IMG/VR virus record: IMGVR_UViG_3300032236_000923
Coordinates: 1 to 47,558 of that record
Direction: 5' to 3' (one strand)
DNA length: 47,558 nt
Source: a virus
The notes below the pieces were generated by a model. The model saw only the letters and a list, made by a program, of their open reading frames with translations. It searched no databases and was not told the DNA's origin. How positions within the stretch are numbered: the stretch's first letter is position 1; every line of letters starts with the position of its first letter. Both the position numbers and the translations under genes were made by a program. Shown one piece after another: positions 8,500 through 38,345 of the stretch.

Positions 8500-9022
8500 C
8501 TTAAAAATAATTGAAGAAAGGGAAAATGGGAATATAATAATTGAAGATTGGGACTTATCACGCTTAAACGCTTGTAGTTATGATGTTAGAATTTACGATA
8601 TTATCAAAGCCCCAAAAAATTATGTGCTAGATACCAGAACTGAAAACGAATGGATAGAGTACCCAATTGAGGAAAAAGGTTTCGTAATTGAACCCGGTAC
8701 TATTTACAATTCTTGCATCATTGGAAAATTTAGCGTTAAGGGTAATATTTGCGCTAAAGTTATGGGTAAATCTAGCTTAGGTCGTCTAGGCTTAGATGTA
8801 ACCGTTGGTGACGTTGGTCATGTTGAAAGTGATTTCTTTGGCAGCTTAGTCATTGAATTAGCAGCTAAACAGCCTACTATTATCTATCCTAATATGAAAA
8901 TAGGGCAAGTATTATTCTACTATATTGACGGAGAAATAGAACGCTATTATTCTAAAGTAAAAGTAAGTAAGTACATGAATCAGGTAGGCGTTCAAACTTC
9001 TTTGAATCATTTGAATTTTTAG
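8486..9022 (+). CDS. dCTP deaminase / dUTPase-family protein
   Basis: 178 residues with the family layout. SYDVRI lies near residue 31. FVIEPG leads to the core, GKSSLGRLGLDV (about 94-105) matches the conserved substrate loop, and FGSLVIELA (about 120-128) carries the expected catalytic Glu. NMKIGQVLFY precedes a C-terminal arm. It would deaminate dCTP to dUTP (possibly also hydrolysing dUTP) to supply dTTP precursors. Sequence alone does not decide between mono- and bifunctional forms. Confidence 0.82.
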   Translation: MPLSDLKIIEERENGNIIIEDWDLSRLNACSYDVRIYDIIKAPKNYVLDTRTENEWIEYPIEEKGFVIEPGTIYNSCIIGKFSVKGNICAKVMGKSSLGRLGLDVTVGDVGHVESDFFGSLVIELAAKQPTIIYPNMKIGQVLFYYIDGEIERYYSKVKVSKYMNQVGVQTSLNHLNF

Positions 9023-9024
9023 AG

Positions 9025-9032
9025 TATATTTG
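9025..9032 (+). promoter_or_regulatory. TATATTTG promoter box
   Basis: TATATTTG starts 3 bases after the dCTP deaminase stop. TTTG lies 20 bases upstream (inside that gene), close to the Bacteroidota -33/-7 spacing. It would drive the structured leader 9037-9130 and the ParB-like cassette. Confidence 0.65.
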
Positions 9033-9036
9033 CCGA

Positions 9037-9130
9037 GTTAATTAGCTATGCGACAGCTAATCACAAAAAACTTATTGCCCCTTTTTGTTAACGTGTGTCG
9101 CATACTCGTTTTTCAATTAGGGGTTTTTTT
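9037..9130 (+). ncRNA. Kissing-loop RNA candidate, copy A
   Basis: Hairpin 1: ATTAGCT (9041-9047) pairs with AGCTAAT (9055-9061), leaving the loop ATGCGAC. Hairpin 2: CCCCT/AGGGG, TTG/CAA and AACG/CGTT (9078-9123, with T-T internal loops), loop 9094-9106. The loop contains GTCGCAT (9097-9103), the exact complement of all seven bases of loop 1. A run of seven T follows. The layout repeats at 12597-12700 with different loop bases. It could be a small RNA or a regulatory leader with terminator for the gene at 9149. Confidence 0.6.
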
Positions 9131-9148
9131 ATTTTAAAATTAGAAAAA

Positions 9149-10309
9149 ATGGAAATTACGCAAAAACTTGTATTGCAAGAAAGGTTAGAATTAATTAAAT
9201 CTTTAATTAATAATGAAATTAAATATCTTCCTATTAATGATAAAATAGAAGCTATTAATGAAATTAGAGAACATATACATGATTTGTCGCCATTTAAAAA
9301 TGAACCTGTAGATTTTGTTAAATGGGTTTTAGCCGAAAATGTAGTAGCTAATAATTACAACCCAAACAAAGTTGCTCCACCAGAAATGGAATTGCTTGAA
9401 GTTTCAATTATGAATGATGGATATACTCAGCCTGTAGTTACATTTCCTAATAACGGCAAAATTGAAGTTGTAGATGGTTTTCACCGTACTAGGGTAAGTA
9501 AAGAATCAAAGATTGTTAGACAAAGAGTTTTAGGGTATACTCCTACTGTAATAATTCGTAAAGAACAAAGCGATAAAAACGACAGAATGGCTTCTACTAT
9601 TAGGCACAATAGAGCAAGAGGAAAACATCAAGTTGATGCAATGAGTGAAATAATCATAGAACTTAAGAATAGAAATTGGAAAAATGAACGTATTGCAAGG
9701 GAATTGGGTATGGACGAAGAAGAAATATTAAGACTATGCCAAATAACAGGATTGCAAGATATTTTTAAAGATGATGATTTTAGTAAGTCTTGGGAGTCAT
9801 CAGATAGTATTGCAGATTACGAACCTATTACAGATGACCTTACGGATGAAGAAGTGGAAACATATAGAACTGTAAACACTAGCGACCCTGATAGGATATT
9901 TCACACATTTGAAAGATGGGAATGCCATAAAGCAGGATTTTACGCTTCAAAAAAAGAAGGCATGACACAAGAACAATGCGAAAATGCTTACAAAGATTTT
10001 TTATCTGACATACCTAGATTTAAAGAAGGCTTGGACGGAGTTATACGAGAATGGATTAATTCTTGTGAACATTATTTAACTAATAAAGCGATGAATAGAA
10101 TTGCATGGTTAGGACAAGCTGCAATGTGTTATTCAACAGGAGTACCTTCAAAATATTGTGCAGGATTTAATTTATTAACAGAAGCGCAGCAAGATGAAGC
10201 CAATGCTTGTGCATTACAAGCTTTAAACTATTGGATGAAAAAATACGATAGAAGCGCAGTAACTATGGAAGATGCATTATCTATTGGTAGGCAAATAAAT
10301 ATATATTAA
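9149..10309 (+). CDS. ParB-like (IbrB-type) protein with extra C-terminal domain
   Basis: I start at the ATG at 9149 (MEITQKLVL...), preceded by ATTAGAAAAA. An upstream GTG at 9095 lies inside the structured leader. 386 residues. The ParB/Srx-like fold occupies about residues 45-150 with the signature VVDGFHRTR (about 107-115) and a MASTIRHNRARG segment. A helical DNA-binding-like part follows (NERIARELGM). The C-terminal half (about 240-386) contains LTNKAMNRIAWLGQAA, a block I associate with other phage proteins. Genes of this type often pair with a PAPS-reductase-like partner (IbrA/IbrB), as here. Confidence 0.7.
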   Translation: MEITQKLVLQERLELIKSLINNEIKYLPINDKIEAINEIREHIHDLSPFKNEPVDFVKWVLAENVVANNYNPNKVAPPEMELLEVSIMNDGYTQPVVTFPNNGKIEVVDGFHRTRVSKESKIVRQRVLGYTPTVIIRKEQSDKNDRMASTIRHNRARGKHQVDAMSEIIIELKNRNWKNERIARELGMDEEEILRLCQITGLQDIFKDDDFSKSWESSDSIADYEPITDDLTDEEVETYRTVNTSDPDRIFHTFERWECHKAGFYASKKEGMTQEQCENAYKDFLSDIPRFKEGLDGVIREWINSCEHYLTNKAMNRIAWLGQAAMCYSTGVPSKYCAGFNLLTEAQQDEANACALQALNYWMKKYDRSAVTMEDALSIGRQINIY

Positions 10310-10310
10310 T

Positions 10311-10832
10311 ATGAAGCCATCAGTAACGGAATTGATAAAACTATTAGATAAGCCAGCATTATTAAAGTGGGCTAATAAAATAGGATTAGAAGGAATAAAA
10401 CTTGAAGATTATAGCAAAAAAGTAATGCAACAAGGGACATCTATTCATAAACAAATTGAATTGTATATTAAATATAAAATTCCTTTTGAAAACAAGTTTC
10501 ATCAAGAATCATTTGATATGTATTTTAAAGATAAAGAAATATTATCTTATGAAAGTATCATTGAAACAGAATGGTTTAAAGGAAGATTAGATTTGAAAAT
10601 ATTATTTAAAGGCAAAACATATGTTTGTGATTTTAAGTTAAACCAAAAGTTTGTTTACTTTGAAAATAAGCTACAACTTGCAGCATATAGATTTGCTGAA
10701 AATGCAGATGGAGTAGGCATTATTTCAATACCTGATTTTACATTTTTGCCTGTTATAATTAAAGATTTTACTCCTTACGAAGAAATACTTAAATCACTTT
10801 CAAATATTTATACATTAAAAAAACAATTATAA
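10311..10832 (+). CDS. PD-(D/E)xK nuclease-like protein
   Basis: 173 residues, 1 base from each neighbour. GTSIHKQIE (about residues 43-51) resembles the helix-1 motif of RecB/Cas4-like exonucleases. GRLDL (about 90-94) and VCDFKLN (about 104-110) supply the D...(D/E)xK core, and KLQLAAYRFAE (about 120-130) matches the following QxxxY helix. Predicted metal-dependent DNA nuclease. The tight coupling to ParB-like and PP-loop genes suggests one function. Confidence 0.75.
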   Translation: MKPSVTELIKLLDKPALLKWANKIGLEGIKLEDYSKKVMQQGTSIHKQIELYIKYKIPFENKFHQESFDMYFKDKEILSYESIIETEWFKGRLDLKILFKGKTYVCDFKLNQKFVYFENKLQLAAYRFAENADGVGIISIPDFTFLPVIIKDFTPYEEILKSLSNIYTLKKQL

Positions 10833-10833
10833 A

Positions 10834-12045
10834 ATGGCAACTAAAATTTATAATGAAAAAACAGTATTACAAGCAAGTAAAGAAAGAATATCATTAACTT
10901 TTGATAATTTTGAAAGTATATATATTTCTTTTTCTGGAGGTAAAGATAGTAGCGTAATGTCTCATTTAGTTTTAGCAGAAGCTAAAAAAAGAAATAGAAA
11001 AGTAGGTTTTCTTATTATTGATTTAGAGGCTCAATATAATGATACGATAACGCATATTGAACAAATGTGCAAAATGTATAAAGATAATATAGAACTTCAT
11101 TGGGTATGCGCTGAACTCTTATTGCGTAATGCAGTAAGTAACTATCAACCACGTTGGGTATGTTGGGATGAAGATAAACAAGATATTTGGGTAAGACAAA
11201 AACCAAAATTAGCATCCGATTTATCTCAATATGATTTTTATCAACCAAAAATGGAGTTTGAAGAGTTTATGGTTATTTTTGGTGAATGGTATTCAAAAGG
11301 TAAAAGTACTGCTGCTTTTATTGGTATTCGTGCAGATGAATCTTTGCATCGTTATCGTGCAATTATATCTAGGAAAGATGGATTAATGTTTCAAAATTGG
11401 AAATGGAGCACAAAAGTATCTAGTAAATTATATAATATTTATCCAATATATGATTGGAAGACAGAAGATATTTGGGTGTTTCATAGCAAATACAGAGAGT
11501 TGCCACATAATAAAGTTTATGATAAAATGATGATTGCAGGTGTTAAAATAAGTCAACAACGTTTATGCCAACCTTATGGAGATGACCAACGTAGAGGATT
11601 ATGGCTTTATCATATTATAGAACCAGACACTTGGTATAAATTAATAGCTCGTGTAAATGGTGTAAATAGCGGAGCATTATATGTGCAAGAAAAAGGGAAT
11701 ATTAGTGGTTATAATAAAATCTATAAACCTGAAAATCATACATGGGAAAGTTTTTGTAACCTTCTTTTATCAACAATGCCTAAAAAAACAAGAGAGCATT
11801 ATAAGGAGCGTTTTATTAAATTTATTAAAGGTTGGCAAGATAGAGGATATTTAAAAATACCTGATGAAGCCCCAGAAGATTTAGAAAATAAATGTTGGGT
11901 TCCTTCTTGGAGGCGTATGTGTAAAGTTATGCTTAGAAATGATTATTGGTGTAAAGGATTAGGGCAAACGCAACCACTATCAGACGCTTATCAAAAGTTT
12001 AAAGAAATTAAAAATAAGCGAAAATTAGATGCTAATTTAATATAA
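10834..12045 (+). CDS. PAPS-reductase-like PP-loop ATPase (IbrA/DUF3440 type)
   Basis: 403 residues. The PP-loop SFSGGKDSS lies at about residues 33-41, binding ATP as in PAPS reductases and DndC-like proteins. Further family features are FIGIRADESLHRYRA (about 163-177) and PIYDWKTEDIW (about 206-216). C-terminal region as in DUF3440 proteins. Length fits IbrA-like proteins. It is last in the three-gene cassette. The sulphur or adenylyl substrate is unknown. Possible roles are nucleotide/DNA modification or regulation; I cannot decide which. Confidence 0.78.
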   Translation: MATKIYNEKTVLQASKERISLTFDNFESIYISFSGGKDSSVMSHLVLAEAKKRNRKVGFLIIDLEAQYNDTITHIEQMCKMYKDNIELHWVCAELLLRNAVSNYQPRWVCWDEDKQDIWVRQKPKLASDLSQYDFYQPKMEFEEFMVIFGEWYSKGKSTAAFIGIRADESLHRYRAIISRKDGLMFQNWKWSTKVSSKLYNIYPIYDWKTEDIWVFHSKYRELPHNKVYDKMMIAGVKISQQRLCQPYGDDQRRGLWLYHIIEPDTWYKLIARVNGVNSGALYVQEKGNISGYNKIYKPENHTWESFCNLLLSTMPKKTREHYKERFIKFIKGWQDRGYLKIPDEAPEDLENKCWVPSWRRMCKVMLRNDYWCKGLGQTQPLSDAYQKFKEIKNKRKLDANLI

Positions 12046-12062
12046 CAAAACCGATTGTTTTG

Positions 12063-12070
12063 TATATTTG
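12063..12070 (+). promoter_or_regulatory. TATATTTG promoter box, leaderless geometry
   Basis: TATATTTG is followed by AGACT and then the ATG at 12076. With the usual Bacteroidota start distance, transcription would begin at or next to the start codon. Confidence 0.6.
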
Positions 12071-12075
12071 AGACT

Positions 12076-12579
12076 ATGACGCATAAAGAAAGATACAACA
12101 AAGCACATAAGAATTATATGGAGATTAAATGCCCAACGGTTTGTGCCGATGGGCATTACTCTTTGCCTAAGATGCCTGATGTTAAAAAGTCAAATGGATT
12201 GACTATGTTCATTATTAATTATCTTAATTGGTCAGGACATCACGGAGAGAGAACTAATACTATGGGTAGACCTATACAAAAATATGCTCCTAAAATGAAC
12301 ATTTTTAGTGGTAAAATTGAACAAGTAGAAAGTGGTATTGAATGGCAGAAAGGCACAGGGATTAAAGGCTCTAGCGATATTAAAGGAGTTATAAATGTAC
12401 CATATCAAAAATTTGGCGTACCTTGTTTTATTGAAATTAAAGTTGCAAAAGACAAACAATCAGCAGCTCAAATAGAATATGAAAAAAAAATAAACAAAAC
12501 GGGAGGACTATATGTAATAGTAAAAACGCCAGATGATTTTTTAAAATTCTTTGATGATGTTGTAGAAAATAGAATTTAA
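12076..12579 (+). CDS. VRR-NUC-like PD-(D/E)xK nuclease
   Basis: 167 residues from the ATG at 12076 (MTHKERYNKAHKNYM...). The upstream extension to 12055 would contain the promoter box. GIKGSSDIKGV (about residues 95-105) and PCFIEIKVAKDKQSAAQIEY (about 116-135) form the D...ExK core of VRR-NUC nucleases. VIVKTPDDFL closes the domain. Such phage nucleases usually act on structured DNA such as replication forks or junctions. Confidence 0.75.
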   Translation: MTHKERYNKAHKNYMEIKCPTVCADGHYSLPKMPDVKKSNGLTMFIINYLNWSGHHGERTNTMGRPIQKYAPKMNIFSGKIEQVESGIEWQKGTGIKGSSDIKGVINVPYQKFGVPCFIEIKVAKDKQSAAQIEYEKKINKTGGLYVIVKTPDDFLKFFDDVVENRI

Positions 12580-12584
12580 TTTAT

Positions 12585-12592
12585 TATATTTG
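12585..12592 (+). promoter_or_regulatory. TATATTTG promoter box
   Basis: TATATTTG immediately after the nuclease gene, followed by a structured RNA candidate and then the gene at 12706. Same arrangement as at 9025. Confidence 0.6.
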
Positions 12593-12596
12593 CAAT

Positions 12597-12700
12597 AGTT
12601 CTTACAATATAAATATAGCTATCTGGCAGTAGCCTATTAATCAATAATTTTATACGCCCTTAACGGGGAGAGTGCCAGCTCGAACCGTTAAGGGCTTTTT
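12597..12700 (+). ncRNA. Kissing-loop RNA candidate, copy B
   Basis: Hairpin 1: ATAG-CTA (12615-12621) pairs with TAG-c-CTAT (12630-12637), leaving loop TCTGGCAG. Hairpin 2: GCCCTTAACGG (12656-12666) pairs perfectly with CCGTTAAGGGC (12685-12695). Its 18-base loop contains TGCCAG (12673-12678), complementary to CTGGCA in loop 1. Five T follow. Copy A at 9037-9130 has the same topology with changed but still complementary loops, i.e. covariation. Confidence 0.6.
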
Positions 12701-12705
12701 ATTTT

Positions 12706-12975
12706 ATGGACATATTAAACAAGTCAAGAAAGCTTTTAGTATTAAAAGACTTTCGTAAACATACACTAGATAAAGGTGGTGTATGTATTTTAGGTGCAAG
12801 CATTCAAATATTTATTGAATCAAAACAAAAGTTCATCGACTTTATAGACCAAGATGAAGTATGTGATGCACAAGGCGAAACTGCTATTTATGAAGCATTA
12901 CGAGAAGCCCAAACAATTACTAACAAATTATTTCCTACTCTTAAAACTAGAATAAACTATGGAGAAGTTGATTAA
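12706..12975 (+). CDS. Hypothetical protein, 89 aa
   Basis: Soluble helical protein starting 5 bases after the T-run of RNA copy B, so the RNA may control it. No recognised motif. It overlaps the HNH nuclease gene by 17 bases. Confidence 0.6.
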   Translation: MDILNKSRKLLVLKDFRKHTLDKGGVCILGASIQIFIESKQKFIDFIDQDEVCDAQGETAIYEALREAQTITNKLFPTLKTRINYGEVD

Positions 12976-13549
12976 TGGTTGTGAAAAATGCAATAGCAGC
13001 AATATAGAATACAAGACTAATGAATTTCAAAAAGGTTATTATTGCAATGATTGTGACCACATTTTTACGCACCAAATAGATTATGGAAGTTGTTGCGGTT
13101 GGACTGATGTACAAACTATGAAAATAGCTACTGCTAATGGGTTTAGCTATAGAAATATTTGCCAAAATTGTTATACTTTAATTTCTGTATTAAAAAAAAC
13201 GGATAAGCCTATAAGTAGTTATTATGAAATAACTTTAGACGAGTTAAGAAAAAAAACTAACTCAATAAACAGGCATTCATTATATACCGAGTTAATGAAT
13301 GTTAAAACAGAAAAACAAAAAAATAAGGATACTGCATTTTGGAATAACTATAAAGAATATCTTAATAGTCAAAAATGGTATAATAAAAGAAATAAAGTTT
13401 TAGAACGTGACAAATATCTTTGCCAAGCTTGCCTAAAAAATAAAGCCATACAGGTTCATCATTTAACTTATGAAAGAGTATTCGATGAACCACTATTTGA
13501 TTTAGTATCTATTTGTTTACCGTGCCATGAAAAGCTACATAAAAAATAA
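12959..13549 (+). CDS. HNH endonuclease with N-terminal zinc ribbons
   Basis: 196 residues. Several CxxC knuckles lie in the first 80 residues (GCEKC, YYCNDC, ICQNC). The HNH domain covers about residues 135-196. It opens with YLNSQKWYNKRNKVLERD, continues CQACLKN and VHHLTYERV, and ends CLPCHEKLH. The paired cysteines and the HH and CH positions are present. This is an ordinary phage HNH nuclease architecture, probably used in DNA processing or host DNA attack, rather than a clear homing enzyme. Confidence 0.8.
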   Translation: MEKLINGCEKCNSSNIEYKTNEFQKGYYCNDCDHIFTHQIDYGSCCGWTDVQTMKIATANGFSYRNICQNCYTLISVLKKTDKPISSYYEITLDELRKKTNSINRHSLYTELMNVKTEKQKNKDTAFWNNYKEYLNSQKWYNKRNKVLERDKYLCQACLKNKAIQVHHLTYERVFDEPLFDLVSICLPCHEKLHKK

Positions 13550-13552
13550 AAT

Positions 13553-15838
13553 ATGGACTTTAATATTTTTAAAGAATTAGTTGATATTGGTTTTAAACCG
13601 TTCCCTATTTATTGGGATGCTGAAAATAAAACAGCTACAAGCCATGTAGTTAAGCATGGAGAAATTACAGACGAAAATTATTCGCAAACAACGATAGAAA
13701 AGTGGGTAAAGGAAATAGGGCAAGCAAATGGAATTGCTATAAAACTTTTTCCCCCATTCTTGATGATAGACTTTGATATTAAGAACACCGAGAATAAGTC
13801 TGTTTTTAAAGATTGGATGCAAGTTTTAAAAGCTACAAATGAAGATGTATTACGCAAAGTATGTATTGAGGAAACAAGAAACAAAGGTTATCATGTTTAT
13901 TTAAAATATCCTGAAGTAAAGCATAAGATTACTATTGCTGCAAGTGAAAAAGGTGCTGAGGTTATTAGCGTTTATACAGGTGGATTAGTAGCTTATTGTA
14001 GTCCTACTCCAGGATACACAATGATACATAACTCATGGGATGATATAGAAGAATTGACACAAGAAGAATTTGATTTACTTGTTTCTATTTCTGCTACATT
14101 TAATGAATATAAAGATAACTATGAGAAAAAAGAAGTTGGTTTTAAGCCAGTAGAATATCCTATTGACTACGAAGCTACTTGTCTATCATTTGACTATCAT
14201 ATTACGGACGAAGCCTTTGAAACTTTACTTAATTCGATGGACTTATTTAGAAATAATAGTTATAAGTATCACAAGAAAGATAAACACATTGCATACTTAC
14301 GCAAAGGCAGTACTGCTACATATTCGGCAAAGGTTTATTGGCAGTCTCGTAAAATATTATTATTTACTACTTCTTTGCCACTATTCCCTACGTGGGCTGA
14401 TAATAAAGGCACAGGCGATAAGTCATGGGTACTAACACCCTCTCGGGTTATTTATTATCGTAACAAAAGGGATTGGGTTGCTACTATTGAAGAAATACAA
14501 ATGATTTGTGATAGTATAGGTATTGAATTAAAGCAAAAGCCTATAGAATTACAACCTTTACGCCAAGATAGAATGCAATTTCCTTATGACATATTTCCTG
14601 ATTACTTGCAGGAATACATCAAATGCCATAATATACAACATGAGTATATCGCATCATTTATGTTTTCTGCATTGGCTACGGCAATAGGTAATACTTGTTA
14701 TTTGGAAGCATTAGACGGTTATTTTGTTAAACCTATTATTTATTTAGCAGTAGTGGCAAATGCAGGAAGTGCAAAGTCTCCTAGCATGAAAATAGCTTTT
14801 GATTTTTTATTTAAAATGGATAACGAAACTTTTAAAACTTATAAGACCAAAAAAGCTAGTTATTTAGAAGAAAAGGCAATATTTGACAAAGACAAGAAAG
14901 CAAATACGCCGCCAACAATTCCTGTATTATCACAAAACATTATTCAAGATGCTACTATTGAGACTGTTATAAATGTACTTCAATATAATAACAAAGGATG
15001 TGTTTTAATGGCTGATGAGTTGATAGGTTTTATTAAAAGAATGAACGCCTACAAACAGGGTGATGATTTACAAAAATGGTTGGAAATGTGGGATGGAAGT
15101 AGCATAATGTTGCAACGTATCACACGAGAAGAAACTAAGATAATAGATTATACTTGCAATGTTGTAGGAGGTATTCAGCCGGGTGTATTAGACCAATTAA
15201 GCAGTGGTGATAATGCCTATAATGGTTTTTACCATAGATTTCTATTTAGCTATCCTAATCCACAAGAAAAAGCATCTTTTGAACAGATTTATAAGCCGAC
15301 ACATTTAAAAGAAAGAGTTACAACTTTATTTGAGAACATTTATTTACATCGTGATAATGATACTAAAACACATTATACGATGTCAACAGATGCCTTAAAT
15401 CTTTATAAACGTTGGCATGACCATAAAAATACTTATTATAACAAAGCTAATAATGATAACGTTAAAGGTATTATAGCAAAATATCAGGGGTATTGTTTAC
15501 GTTTTGCGCTTATTATTCAAGCTATAGAAGATAGTAGTTACAGAGTAGGTTTAATCGGGCAGGATAGTATGGAAAGAGCAATAAGACTTACTGAGTATTT
15601 CTTTGCGAATATGAATAAGGCTTTAAAGTTATTGAACCCAGAAACTCCTATTGATACACTTAGAAGTCCTTATGATAAGATATACGAAGAACTGCCAGAC
15701 TTTTTTACTATGAAAACGGGTATATTGATTGCTGATAAATATAAGGTTAAAACATCTGCATTTAAAATGTTCATTTTAAGGCAAAAGGATTTATTTAAAA
15801 AAGGTACTGATTTAGGAAGCTATGAGAAAATATTATAG
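13553..15838 (+). CDS. Primase-polymerase / DUF3987 replication protein
   Basis: 761 residues. The N-terminal prim-pol (AEP) domain covers about residues 1-175: DFD at 73-75, GYH at 112-114, and EVISVYTGGLVAYCS as the third motif. The DUF3987 helicase-like domain follows (about 360-660) with a P-loop-like NAGSAKSP near residue 402 and VLMADELIGF as a Walker B-like segment. It should make primers and unwind DNA at the origin. The adjacent downstream gap is packed with GTCACA iterons. Confidence 0.85.
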   Translation: MDFNIFKELVDIGFKPFPIYWDAENKTATSHVVKHGEITDENYSQTTIEKWVKEIGQANGIAIKLFPPFLMIDFDIKNTENKSVFKDWMQVLKATNEDVLRKVCIEETRNKGYHVYLKYPEVKHKITIAASEKGAEVISVYTGGLVAYCSPTPGYTMIHNSWDDIEELTQEEFDLLVSISATFNEYKDNYEKKEVGFKPVEYPIDYEATCLSFDYHITDEAFETLLNSMDLFRNNSYKYHKKDKHIAYLRKGSTATYSAKVYWQSRKILLFTTSLPLFPTWADNKGTGDKSWVLTPSRVIYYRNKRDWVATIEEIQMICDSIGIELKQKPIELQPLRQDRMQFPYDIFPDYLQEYIKCHNIQHEYIASFMFSALATAIGNTCYLEALDGYFVKPIIYLAVVANAGSAKSPSMKIAFDFLFKMDNETFKTYKTKKASYLEEKAIFDKDKKANTPPTIPVLSQNIIQDATIETVINVLQYNNKGCVLMADELIGFIKRMNAYKQGDDLQKWLEMWDGSSIMLQRITREETKIIDYTCNVVGGIQPGVLDQLSSGDNAYNGFYHRFLFSYPNPQEKASFEQIYKPTHLKERVTTLFENIYLHRDNDTKTHYTMSTDALNLYKRWHDHKNTYYNKANNDNVKGIIAKYQGYCLRFALIIQAIEDSSYRVGLIGQDSMERAIRLTEYFFANMNKALKLLNPETPIDTLRSPYDKIYEELPDFFTMKTGILIADKYKVKTSAFKMFILRQKDLFKKGTDLGSYEKIL

Positions 15839-37158: not shown

Positions 37159-38345
37159 TGTATAGAGTTGTTTCAAATATCACAATAATACAGCAGCCAA
37201 CAAAAGATTTCCCTACAAGGAATAAAACGCTACACTTCGATTTTGCGCATGAATTTGAAGCGAATGATAGTTGGCGTAATTTAACCAACACGGGCAAAAT
37301 TATAATACCTAAGAAACTATATTATAGGGATGCTAACAATAAGCTACAGCCATTGGACGGCACATTGGTAAATATTGGCGGATTCTCATCTACACCACCA
37401 TTACTACTTAGGGGCGATGTAGTTACTATTGATTGGGGATATAAATATTTTAAAGGCGGTCACGAAGTGTTAGAAAGTAGTAATGACGGGCTGCCATTAT
37501 TTAGCGGATATATTTCACAAGTTACAGCTAAGAAGCCTATTGAGTTTTTAGTTGAGGATAATATGTGGAAGCTAAAACAGATACCAGCACCTACACACAC
37601 ATTCGCAACGACTGACACGCTAGAAAGTATTTTAAAGTTTCTTTTACAAGGTACTAACTTTACAGTACAGACAACTACACAAACTACGTTTGGGTTATTT
37701 AAGATAGGTAATGAAACAGTTGCGGAAGTATTAGCAAGGCTAAGAAAAGCGTATAGGTTCGAGTTCTTTTTTCGTGGTAATACTTTATTTGGCGGTAGCC
37801 TTATTTATTCGCTATTAACACCAAAGACAAGGGTATTTACTTTTCAAAACAATATCATTAGTGACGAACTAGAATACAGACGAAAGGACGATATTACACT
37901 TTCGGCGGTTGCTCAAAATTCTATCGAAGAAGAAACAGGCAAGACCAATAGGCAAGGTGTTGCAAAGACAAAGAAAGTACGTTTAGAAGTATTGGTTACG
38001 TTTCAAAATGGTAGCGATACGCCTACTAATTTTATCAAAATTAAGGGTATAGATTACCCTCCTAATACGGGCGGTGAACGTAGGACATTATTCTTTCCTG
38101 GCGCAAAGTCTATCGCAGAACTTGAACAATTAGCGGCGGATGAACTACGCAAATATTATTATACGGGTTTTAAAGGAAAGTTTACTACTTTTGGTTTGCC
38201 ATTTGTAAGAATGGGTGATAATGTGCAGTTGGTAGATACTATCTTACCAGAGCGAAACGGAACTTACAAAGTAAGGAGTGTGGAATATACAGGTGGAATG
38301 GGTGGACTTCGTCAAAATATAGAATTGGATTACAAAATTATATGA
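37158..38345 (+). CDS. Baseplate hub protein (gpD-like)
   Basis: 395 residues. It has the hub-type arrangement: beta-barrel-like segments, a PLFSGYISQVTAKKPIEFLV block (about 112-131), an ETVAEVLARLRKAYRFEFFF block and the late KFTTFGLPFVRMGDNVQLVD segment (about 345-365) ending LRQNIELDYKI. Equivalent to P2 gpD / T4 gp27-like hubs that hold the spike. Family call by pattern. Confidence 0.7.
   Translation: MYRVVSNITIIQQPTKDFPTRNKTLHFDFAHEFEANDSWRNLTNTGKIIIPKKLYYRDANNKLQPLDGTLVNIGGFSSTPPLLLRGDVVTIDWGYKYFKGGHEVLESSNDGLPLFSGYISQVTAKKPIEFLVEDNMWKLKQIPAPTHTFATTDTLESILKFLLQGTNFTVQTTTQTTFGLFKIGNETVAEVLARLRKAYRFEFFFRGNTLFGGSLIYSLLTPKTRVFTFQNNIISDELEYRRKDDITLSAVAQNSIEEETGKTNRQGVAKTKKVRLEVLVTFQNGSDTPTNFIKIKGIDYPPNTGGERRTLFFPGAKSIAELEQLAADELRKYYYTGFKGKFTTFGLPFVRMGDNVQLVDTILPERNGTYKVRSVEYTGGMGGLRQNIELDYKII

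Follow-up and report, generated by a model that had tools for sequence, protein, structure and literature searches.

A kissing-loop leader that looks like a transcription switch ahead of Bacteroidota phage genes

In the ColE1 RNAI/RNAII system, loops of about 7 nt are fully paired, and the Rop protein recognizes the resulting complex by its shape. In plasmids pT181 and pIP501, attenuation is driven by a countertranscript, and the leader there pairs with a distinct antisense RNA. The put sites of phage HK022 form two hairpins immediately downstream of an early promoter; they have no terminator U-run, and we know of no loop-loop complementarity in them. Intrinsic-terminator attenuators, whether of the leader-peptide, T-box, or riboswitch kind, have in common a promoter, a structured leader, a hairpin with a U-run, and a gene that lacks a further promoter. 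RNA motifs have also been described from phages or Bacteroidetes, including c4 antisense, Flavo-1, Bacteroides-1, and STAXI, a pseudoknot that lies close to genes encoding DNA-binding proteins; none is described as a kissing loop (Weinberg et al. 2010, PMC2864571). The Flavobacterium psychrophilum transcriptome contains 64 structured 5′ regions, and the text of that report does not mention phage (PMC9723704).

The DNA analyzed here is a stretch of 47,558 nucleotides from IMG/VR virus record IMGVR_UViG_3300032236_000923 (the window). A sequence-only reading of it had singled out a promoter-like box at 9025, a 7-bp hairpin whose entire loop matches the loop of a terminator-like hairpin, and a run of seven T. 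The coordinates bear out each of these parts, which we refer to as copy A (H1, the 5′ hairpin; H2, the terminator-like hairpin):

9001-9004, + strand: TTTG of the -33 element, at a spacer of 20 to the -7 box
9025-9032, + strand: -7 box TATATTTG of the TAnnTTTG type, a promoter predicted from reading the sequence
9041-9061, + strand: H1, with a 7-bp stem (ATTAGCT, 9041-9047; AGCTAAT, 9055-9061)
9048-9054, + strand: H1 loop of 7 nt, ATGCGAC
9062-9076, + strand: A-rich linker
9077-9124, + strand: H2, with outer stem GCCCCT (9077-9082) and AGGGGT (9119-9124)
9090-9096 and 9104-9110, + strand: inner stem of H2, with one U-U mismatch
9097-9103, + strand: inner loop of H2, GTCGCAT, the exact complement of the H1 loop
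9124-9130, + strand: U-run of seven T, the first doubling as the wobble end of the H2 stem

The loop-loop pairing grows to 9 bp if the closing pair of H1 opens, and none of 200 dinucleotide shuffles folds as well (z = -3.06). The TAnnTTTG box of Flavobacterium promoters sits at -12 to -5 (PMC9723704); transcription is therefore predicted to start near 9037 in copy A and near 12597 in copy B, with H1 close to where the RNA begins. For copy A, we did not retain a 12-base extension of the loop match (CGAGT, 9034-9038, with ACTCG, 9104-9108), most of which falls upstream of the predicted start at 9037.

The layout had also been reported to recur at 12585, and the box, H1, linker, H2, and U-run are all found there with the loop pair CTGGCA/TGCCAG. 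The fold of this copy B likewise beats all 200 dinucleotide shuffles (z = -3.50):

12585-12592, + strand: -7 box TATATTTG, a predicted promoter, with transcription predicted to start at about 12597
12618-12633, + strand: H1, with stem 12618-12622 / 12629-12633, which covaries in two orthologous loci (L002 and L003)
12623-12628, + strand: H1 loop, CTGGCA
12656-12695, + strand: H2, with stem 12656-12666 / 12685-12695 and internal loop GGA/GAA
12670-12672 and 12679-12681, + strand: inner stem of H2
12673-12678, + strand: H2 loop, TGCCAG, the complement of the whole H1 loop
12696-12700, + strand: U-run of five T; the ATG of the next gene is at 12706

Copy A had been placed in front of a ParB-like cassette, and both its position and its neighbors agree with this. 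The ParB-like gene starts at the ATG at 9149; the GTG at 9095 given by the ORF list falls within H2. The genes behind the two copies are:

9149-10309, + strand: ParB/IbrB-like protein (phrog_2159), first gene behind copy A
10311-10832, + strand: exonuclease-like, copy A cassette
10834-12045, + strand: PAPS-reductase/DUF3440 (IbrA-like), copy A cassette
12055-12579, + strand: endonuclease-like (weak match), copy A cassette
12706-12975, + strand: small ORF, first behind copy B
12959-13549, + strand: HNH endonuclease-like, behind copy B
13553-15838, + strand: DUF3987 helicase/primase, behind copy B

The IbrB-like ParB and IbrA-like PAPS-reductase/DUF3440 genes (9149-12045) co-occur in several unrelated phages.

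Relatives were collected from IMG/VR with the ParB-like protein (80 loci), the DUF6291-type neighbor (30), and the primase (80). Early inspection of regions upstream of ParB-like genes had revealed the same layout in other letters: TGTGCG/CGCACA in loci L013 and L021, CGTCTCAC/GTGAGACG in L044, and, without an H1 stem, TAGCTTACACCGT in L046. The scan of the collection, 2.36 Mb of related IMG/VR phage DNA, first sought a -7 box, then a terminator-like hairpin, and lastly the longest stretch over which the loop of that hairpin matches the 5′ part. Of 290 candidates with both promoter and terminator, 61 had a match of at least 7 bases including at least 3 G/C, compared with 6.7 expected when loops were swapped among the same 290 (orthologs are counted separately in both figures). 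When no promoter was required, T-run hairpins showed no excess at 7 and 8 bases (110 vs 100 and 39 vs 34), and an excess only at 9 bases or more (26 vs about 11); the counts quoted here are therefore restricted to promoter-linked hairpins. Among promoter-linked hairpins taken without selection for a T-tail, at least five T in the next 8 nt were found behind 110 of 548 overall and behind 52 of the 77 that kiss, for which shuffling predicts 1.8. Removal of duplicates left 71 kissing candidates, and the 60 with an ORF close behind form our working list.

These counts bear out the view that a full-loop match is unlikely to arise by chance. AT-rich DNA is rich in hairpins, and two unrelated ones with accidentally matching loops would be a rare find in any single case (a 7-base match in a loop of about 36 bases is an event of about 0.2%). 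The family statistics, together with the compensatory changes described next, refute this explanation, and we give it next to no credence.

Covarying pairs were counted directly, in place of a covariance model, because such a model cannot represent kissing pairs. Conservation and covariation, the check proposed with the sequence-only reading, were indeed found in relatives, as compensatory double changes in orthologs. In the orthologs of copy B (L002-L005, only three distinct sequences), H2 is constant but for one loop base. The loops CTGGCA/TGCCAG of copy B are CTGCCA/TGGCAG in L003, both partners having changed, and two pairs of the H1 stem are altered on both sides. Similarly, of eight primase leaders, three carry GATGCAG/CTGCATC and five GATACAG/CTGTATC, and their outer stem has four pairs altered on both sides; the covariation score was reached by none of 500 shuffles and lies above all slid versions too. 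The compensatory changes amount to few evolutionary events, yet they are located where the model predicts. Phages like Flavobacterium phage FCL-2 added no covariation, since identity among their nine matching records is 99% or higher and phage FCV-1 has different genes at this place. Taken together, we are highly confident that the element is a real, conserved, structured leader.

At nine loci that hold more than one element, the median match of a leader with itself is 8 bases and that with its neighbor 5, and pairing is therefore kept in cis. The elements resemble ColE1 RNAI/RNAII in their fully complementary loops of about 7 nt. However, ColE1 pairing joins two RNAs in trans, whereas here both loops lie in one leader and match only themselves. 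Loop-loop pairing near the terminator of a leader RNA also recalls pT181 and pIP501, with the difference that no TAnnTTTG box, the one promoter type searched for, occurs on the minus strand near either copy (3.9-17 kb of the window).

The 60 elements share further anatomy. The -7 box mostly lies close behind the stop codon of the upstream gene, often within 1-16 nt, and a TTG at -33, which was not a selection criterion, occurs at a spacer of 19-21 in 19 of 60 (3.3 expected). An H1 stem of at least 4 bp is present in 43 of 60, compared with 25.7 ± 3.4 expected from flank shuffling. Where the stem is lacking, the H2 loop pairs with the unstructured 5′ end, and the pairing is longer: the median match is 7 bases with an H1 stem and 9 without (p = 2e-5), which is what a hairpin that pre-orders its loop would lead one to expect. 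As a side observation, the linker of primase leaders L115-L126 and of the FCL-2 leader (L196:37515-37535) holds a further small hairpin (TTGGC...GCCAA; AGGTTTTTTAACCT).

The start codon lies close behind H2. Among elements whose gene starts with ATG, it follows the H2 stem by 6-26 nt in 56 of 57, in a list pre-filtered for a nearby ORF; in the unfiltered comparison, an ATG lies no more than 30 nt from the stem in 55 of 71 kissing candidates vs 25 of 229 others. This leaves no space for a second promoter, and hence any transcript of the downstream gene, from its own or an upstream promoter, must cross H2. The sequence-only reading had left three functions open: a regulatory leader, a trans-acting RNA, and an antitermination device. 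A regulatory leader acting in cis is now favored, on account of the proximity of the ATG, the lack of room for a promoter, the cis-specific pairing, and the compensatory changes; the trans-acting RNA has become less likely, and antitermination stays among the candidates.

As a trans-acting small RNA of the phage, the element would be the terminated product of about 95 nt, and the downstream gene would be expressed by leakage. The unit from promoter to terminator does have the size of a small RNA, and Bacteroides thetaiotaomicron is known to have both small RNAs with intrinsic terminators and small RNAs derived from 5′-UTRs (PMC7366714). Nonetheless, an ATG stands 6-26 nt downstream almost everywhere, each loop is taken up by pairing with the other, and loops vary from phage to phage and among the copies of a genome, each copy compensating within itself. 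We thus consider this function improbable.

We instead propose a cis-acting leader of about 95-105 nt, in which a Bacteroidota sigma-A-type promoter would start the RNA just ahead of H1. The RNA would continue via the A-rich linker into the intrinsic-terminator-like H2 and its U-run, leaving 6-26 nt to the start codon. The inner hairpin of H2 would present a loop of 6-9 nt that pairs with the entire H1 loop, forming an intramolecular kissing loop. The polymerase would then either stop at the U-run, yielding an RNA of about 95 nt, or read through into the replication/recombination operon, with the kissing fold setting the ratio between stop and read-through and an outside factor reading that fold by its shape. 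We put the probability that the element works as a transcription attenuator at roughly 0.55. The sequences themselves establish the layout, the family, a complementarity that exceeds chance, the compensatory changes, and a geometry that forces read-through. The promoter, the transcript, and its termination are predictions from sequence; termination at H2 in vivo, an effect of kissing on it, and the shape-reading factor are what we infer.

Several findings fit an attenuator. The -33 and -7 elements lie upstream, the proximity of the ATG leaves no promoter in between, and a GC-rich stem is immediately followed by a U-run. We found no alternative anti-terminator that would mask the 5′ arm of H2: the pairing of this arm exceeds 0.5 in only 9 of 60 elements, and until the 3′ arm has been transcribed it is largely free. 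The switch between two mutually exclusive structures that is usual in attenuators is thus absent. Compared with known intrinsic-terminator attenuators, the elements have no anti-terminator that we could find, no leader peptide that looks consistent by eye, and no conserved ligand pocket, and instead have intramolecular kissing between a 5′ hairpin and the terminator loop. An outside factor is suggested because no anti-terminator was found and the loop letters vary freely; a factor that reads shape would explain this freedom, as Rop does for the ColE1 kissing loops. We also considered a conserved leader peptide. In several leaders of the linear form (though not in copy B), an ATGAAAA-like start comes after the 5′ segment that pairs; by eye, these short ORFs differ between leaders and end at different places, and a peptide was not adopted.

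The U-run is not a normal feature of translation start sites here: five T occur at -25 to -1 before 46 of 60 element genes, compared with 1 of 42 other, ordinary genes in the window. In Flavobacterium johnsoniae, structure in the start region lowers translation, and UUUU placed at -14 to -11 cut expression by 60% (PMC6847099), so the stem and U-run would be costly unless functional. The same data could point to a fold that acts after transcription, by shielding the 5′ end from decay and/or limiting ribosome access to the start codon 6-26 nt away, with a U-run that is no working terminator. Consistent with this, the 5′ end of the RNA is tied into the fold in both the H1 and the linear forms, H2 lies in or next to the region where, in F. 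johnsoniae, initiation is lowered by structure (PMC6847099), and no anti-terminator was found. However, such a fold would not need a U-run after the stem, a feature rare before ordinary genes and common before these, and the T enrichment tracks the end of the stem. We regard post-transcriptional action as rather unlikely, although worth weighing alongside the attenuator.

Nineteen of the 60 elements carry GA on both sides between the outer and inner stems of H2, vs 5.4 ± 2.0; examples are GAGUA...GAA, as in FCL-2, and UGAUA...UGAU. This excess counts in favor of the attenuator, and the lack of a GA internal loop in H2 of copy A counts against it. By their letters, loops of the GAGUA/GAA type appear to resemble the sarcin-ricin internal loop. 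As a putative binding site, the GA-type internal loop could serve antitermination, in which a fold resembling a put or nut site would load or modify RNA polymerase to pass H2, as the first terminator, and later ones. The element does stand directly behind a promoter, consists of two hairpins, as in HK022 put, and heads replication operons. Unlike put, however, it adds a U-run and a loop-loop match; no conserved linear sequence such as boxA is seen in the structural listing, and nut sites, to our knowledge, do not require kissing complementarity. We consider antitermination, too, to be improbable.

Extending the attenuator reading, the kissing leaders may form a phage-wide regulon, in which one phage or host protein would recognize the fold and the GA-rich loop by their shape, irrespective of the loop letters, and switch all leader terminators together. 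We hold this idea only tentatively, and doubt it on balance. If true, replication, recombination, and homing-endonuclease genes would be turned on as a timed class, and loop letters would drift yet differ between copies, such that each leader pairs only with itself.

The element looks like a widespread, unnamed switch that turns on Bacteroidota phage genes. Behind it we found genes for primases (BT4734-like_N/PriCT_1), ParB/IbrB-like, DUF6291, DUF3310-like, and VRR_NUC proteins, NUMOD4-HNH, HNH, and GIY-YIG endonucleases, and a Phg_2220_C protein in FCL-2, a collection biased toward replication-type genes because these served as queries. Loci collected by the portal gene (536 kb, including one whole FCL-2-like genome) contained one element, before a GIY-YIG gene. 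Cultured phages have it as well: FCL-2 and the near-identical FCOV phages carry one each, before CDS 37596-38312, and elemoF_6-3D, whose host is Flavobacterium sp. BAL314, carries one before CDS 9006-9191.

As had been suspected, the element belongs to no named RNA family. In Rfam searches (gathering cut-off and E <= 10), the window gave only chance matches far below the cut-off, and no family reached threshold in the tested relatives. The motifs of Weinberg et al. share phage or Bacteroidota hosts with the element and are set apart by their description and by Rfam scores. No published report of the element was found, which is weak evidence of novelty given that bioRxiv and subscription texts lay outside the search. 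What we would call new is a leader of attenuator-like design whose kissing architecture is, unusually, intramolecular and whose pairing element is hyper-variable yet self-matching. The family would be unusual in that shape and self-complementarity are kept as the paired letters change freely, and it is likely to escape ordinary searches by sequence or covariance model for this reason. The timing of gene expression in Bacteroidota phages is little known, and a recurring, testable fold offers a direct handle on the control of middle genes.

Several observations concern the mobility and reach of the element. The FCL-2 leader (L196:37475-37596) and its gene are jointly missing in the related Flavobacterium columnare phages FCV-1 (L207) and V182 (L208), where we looked for the element without finding it and where other genes stand instead, as if leader and gene moved as one cassette. 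Homing-endonuclease genes (GIY-YIG/NUMOD4-HNH) lie behind many elements (L002:1488, L149:8222, L211:947, L136:4753, L160:12452, and L161:14714), which raises the possibility that these mobile genes spread the leader. In contigs of bacterial genomes, we found no ParB-like protein and six primase loci, one of which, in an Ignavibacteria MAG (L206:2405-2530), has a kissing leader with loops ACGCGAC/GTCGCGT and an 18-bp outer stem. This contig may be viral, and the element may reach beyond Bacteroidota.

A second type of leader occupies the last ~95 nt before the primase start at 13 loci (L141, L152, L155, L156, L165, L168, L172, L180, L182, L183, L192, L193, and L194). It matched no Rfam family in the four loci searched (L155, L172, L194, and L152). 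It contains a terminator-like hairpin (GAGGGG...CCCCCTC, with an inner AAAAGG/CCTTT). Between the U-run and the primase ATG lies, sometimes twice, a sequence that pairs with the apical loop of this hairpin over 7-9 bases; here, too, the pairing letters vary but match.
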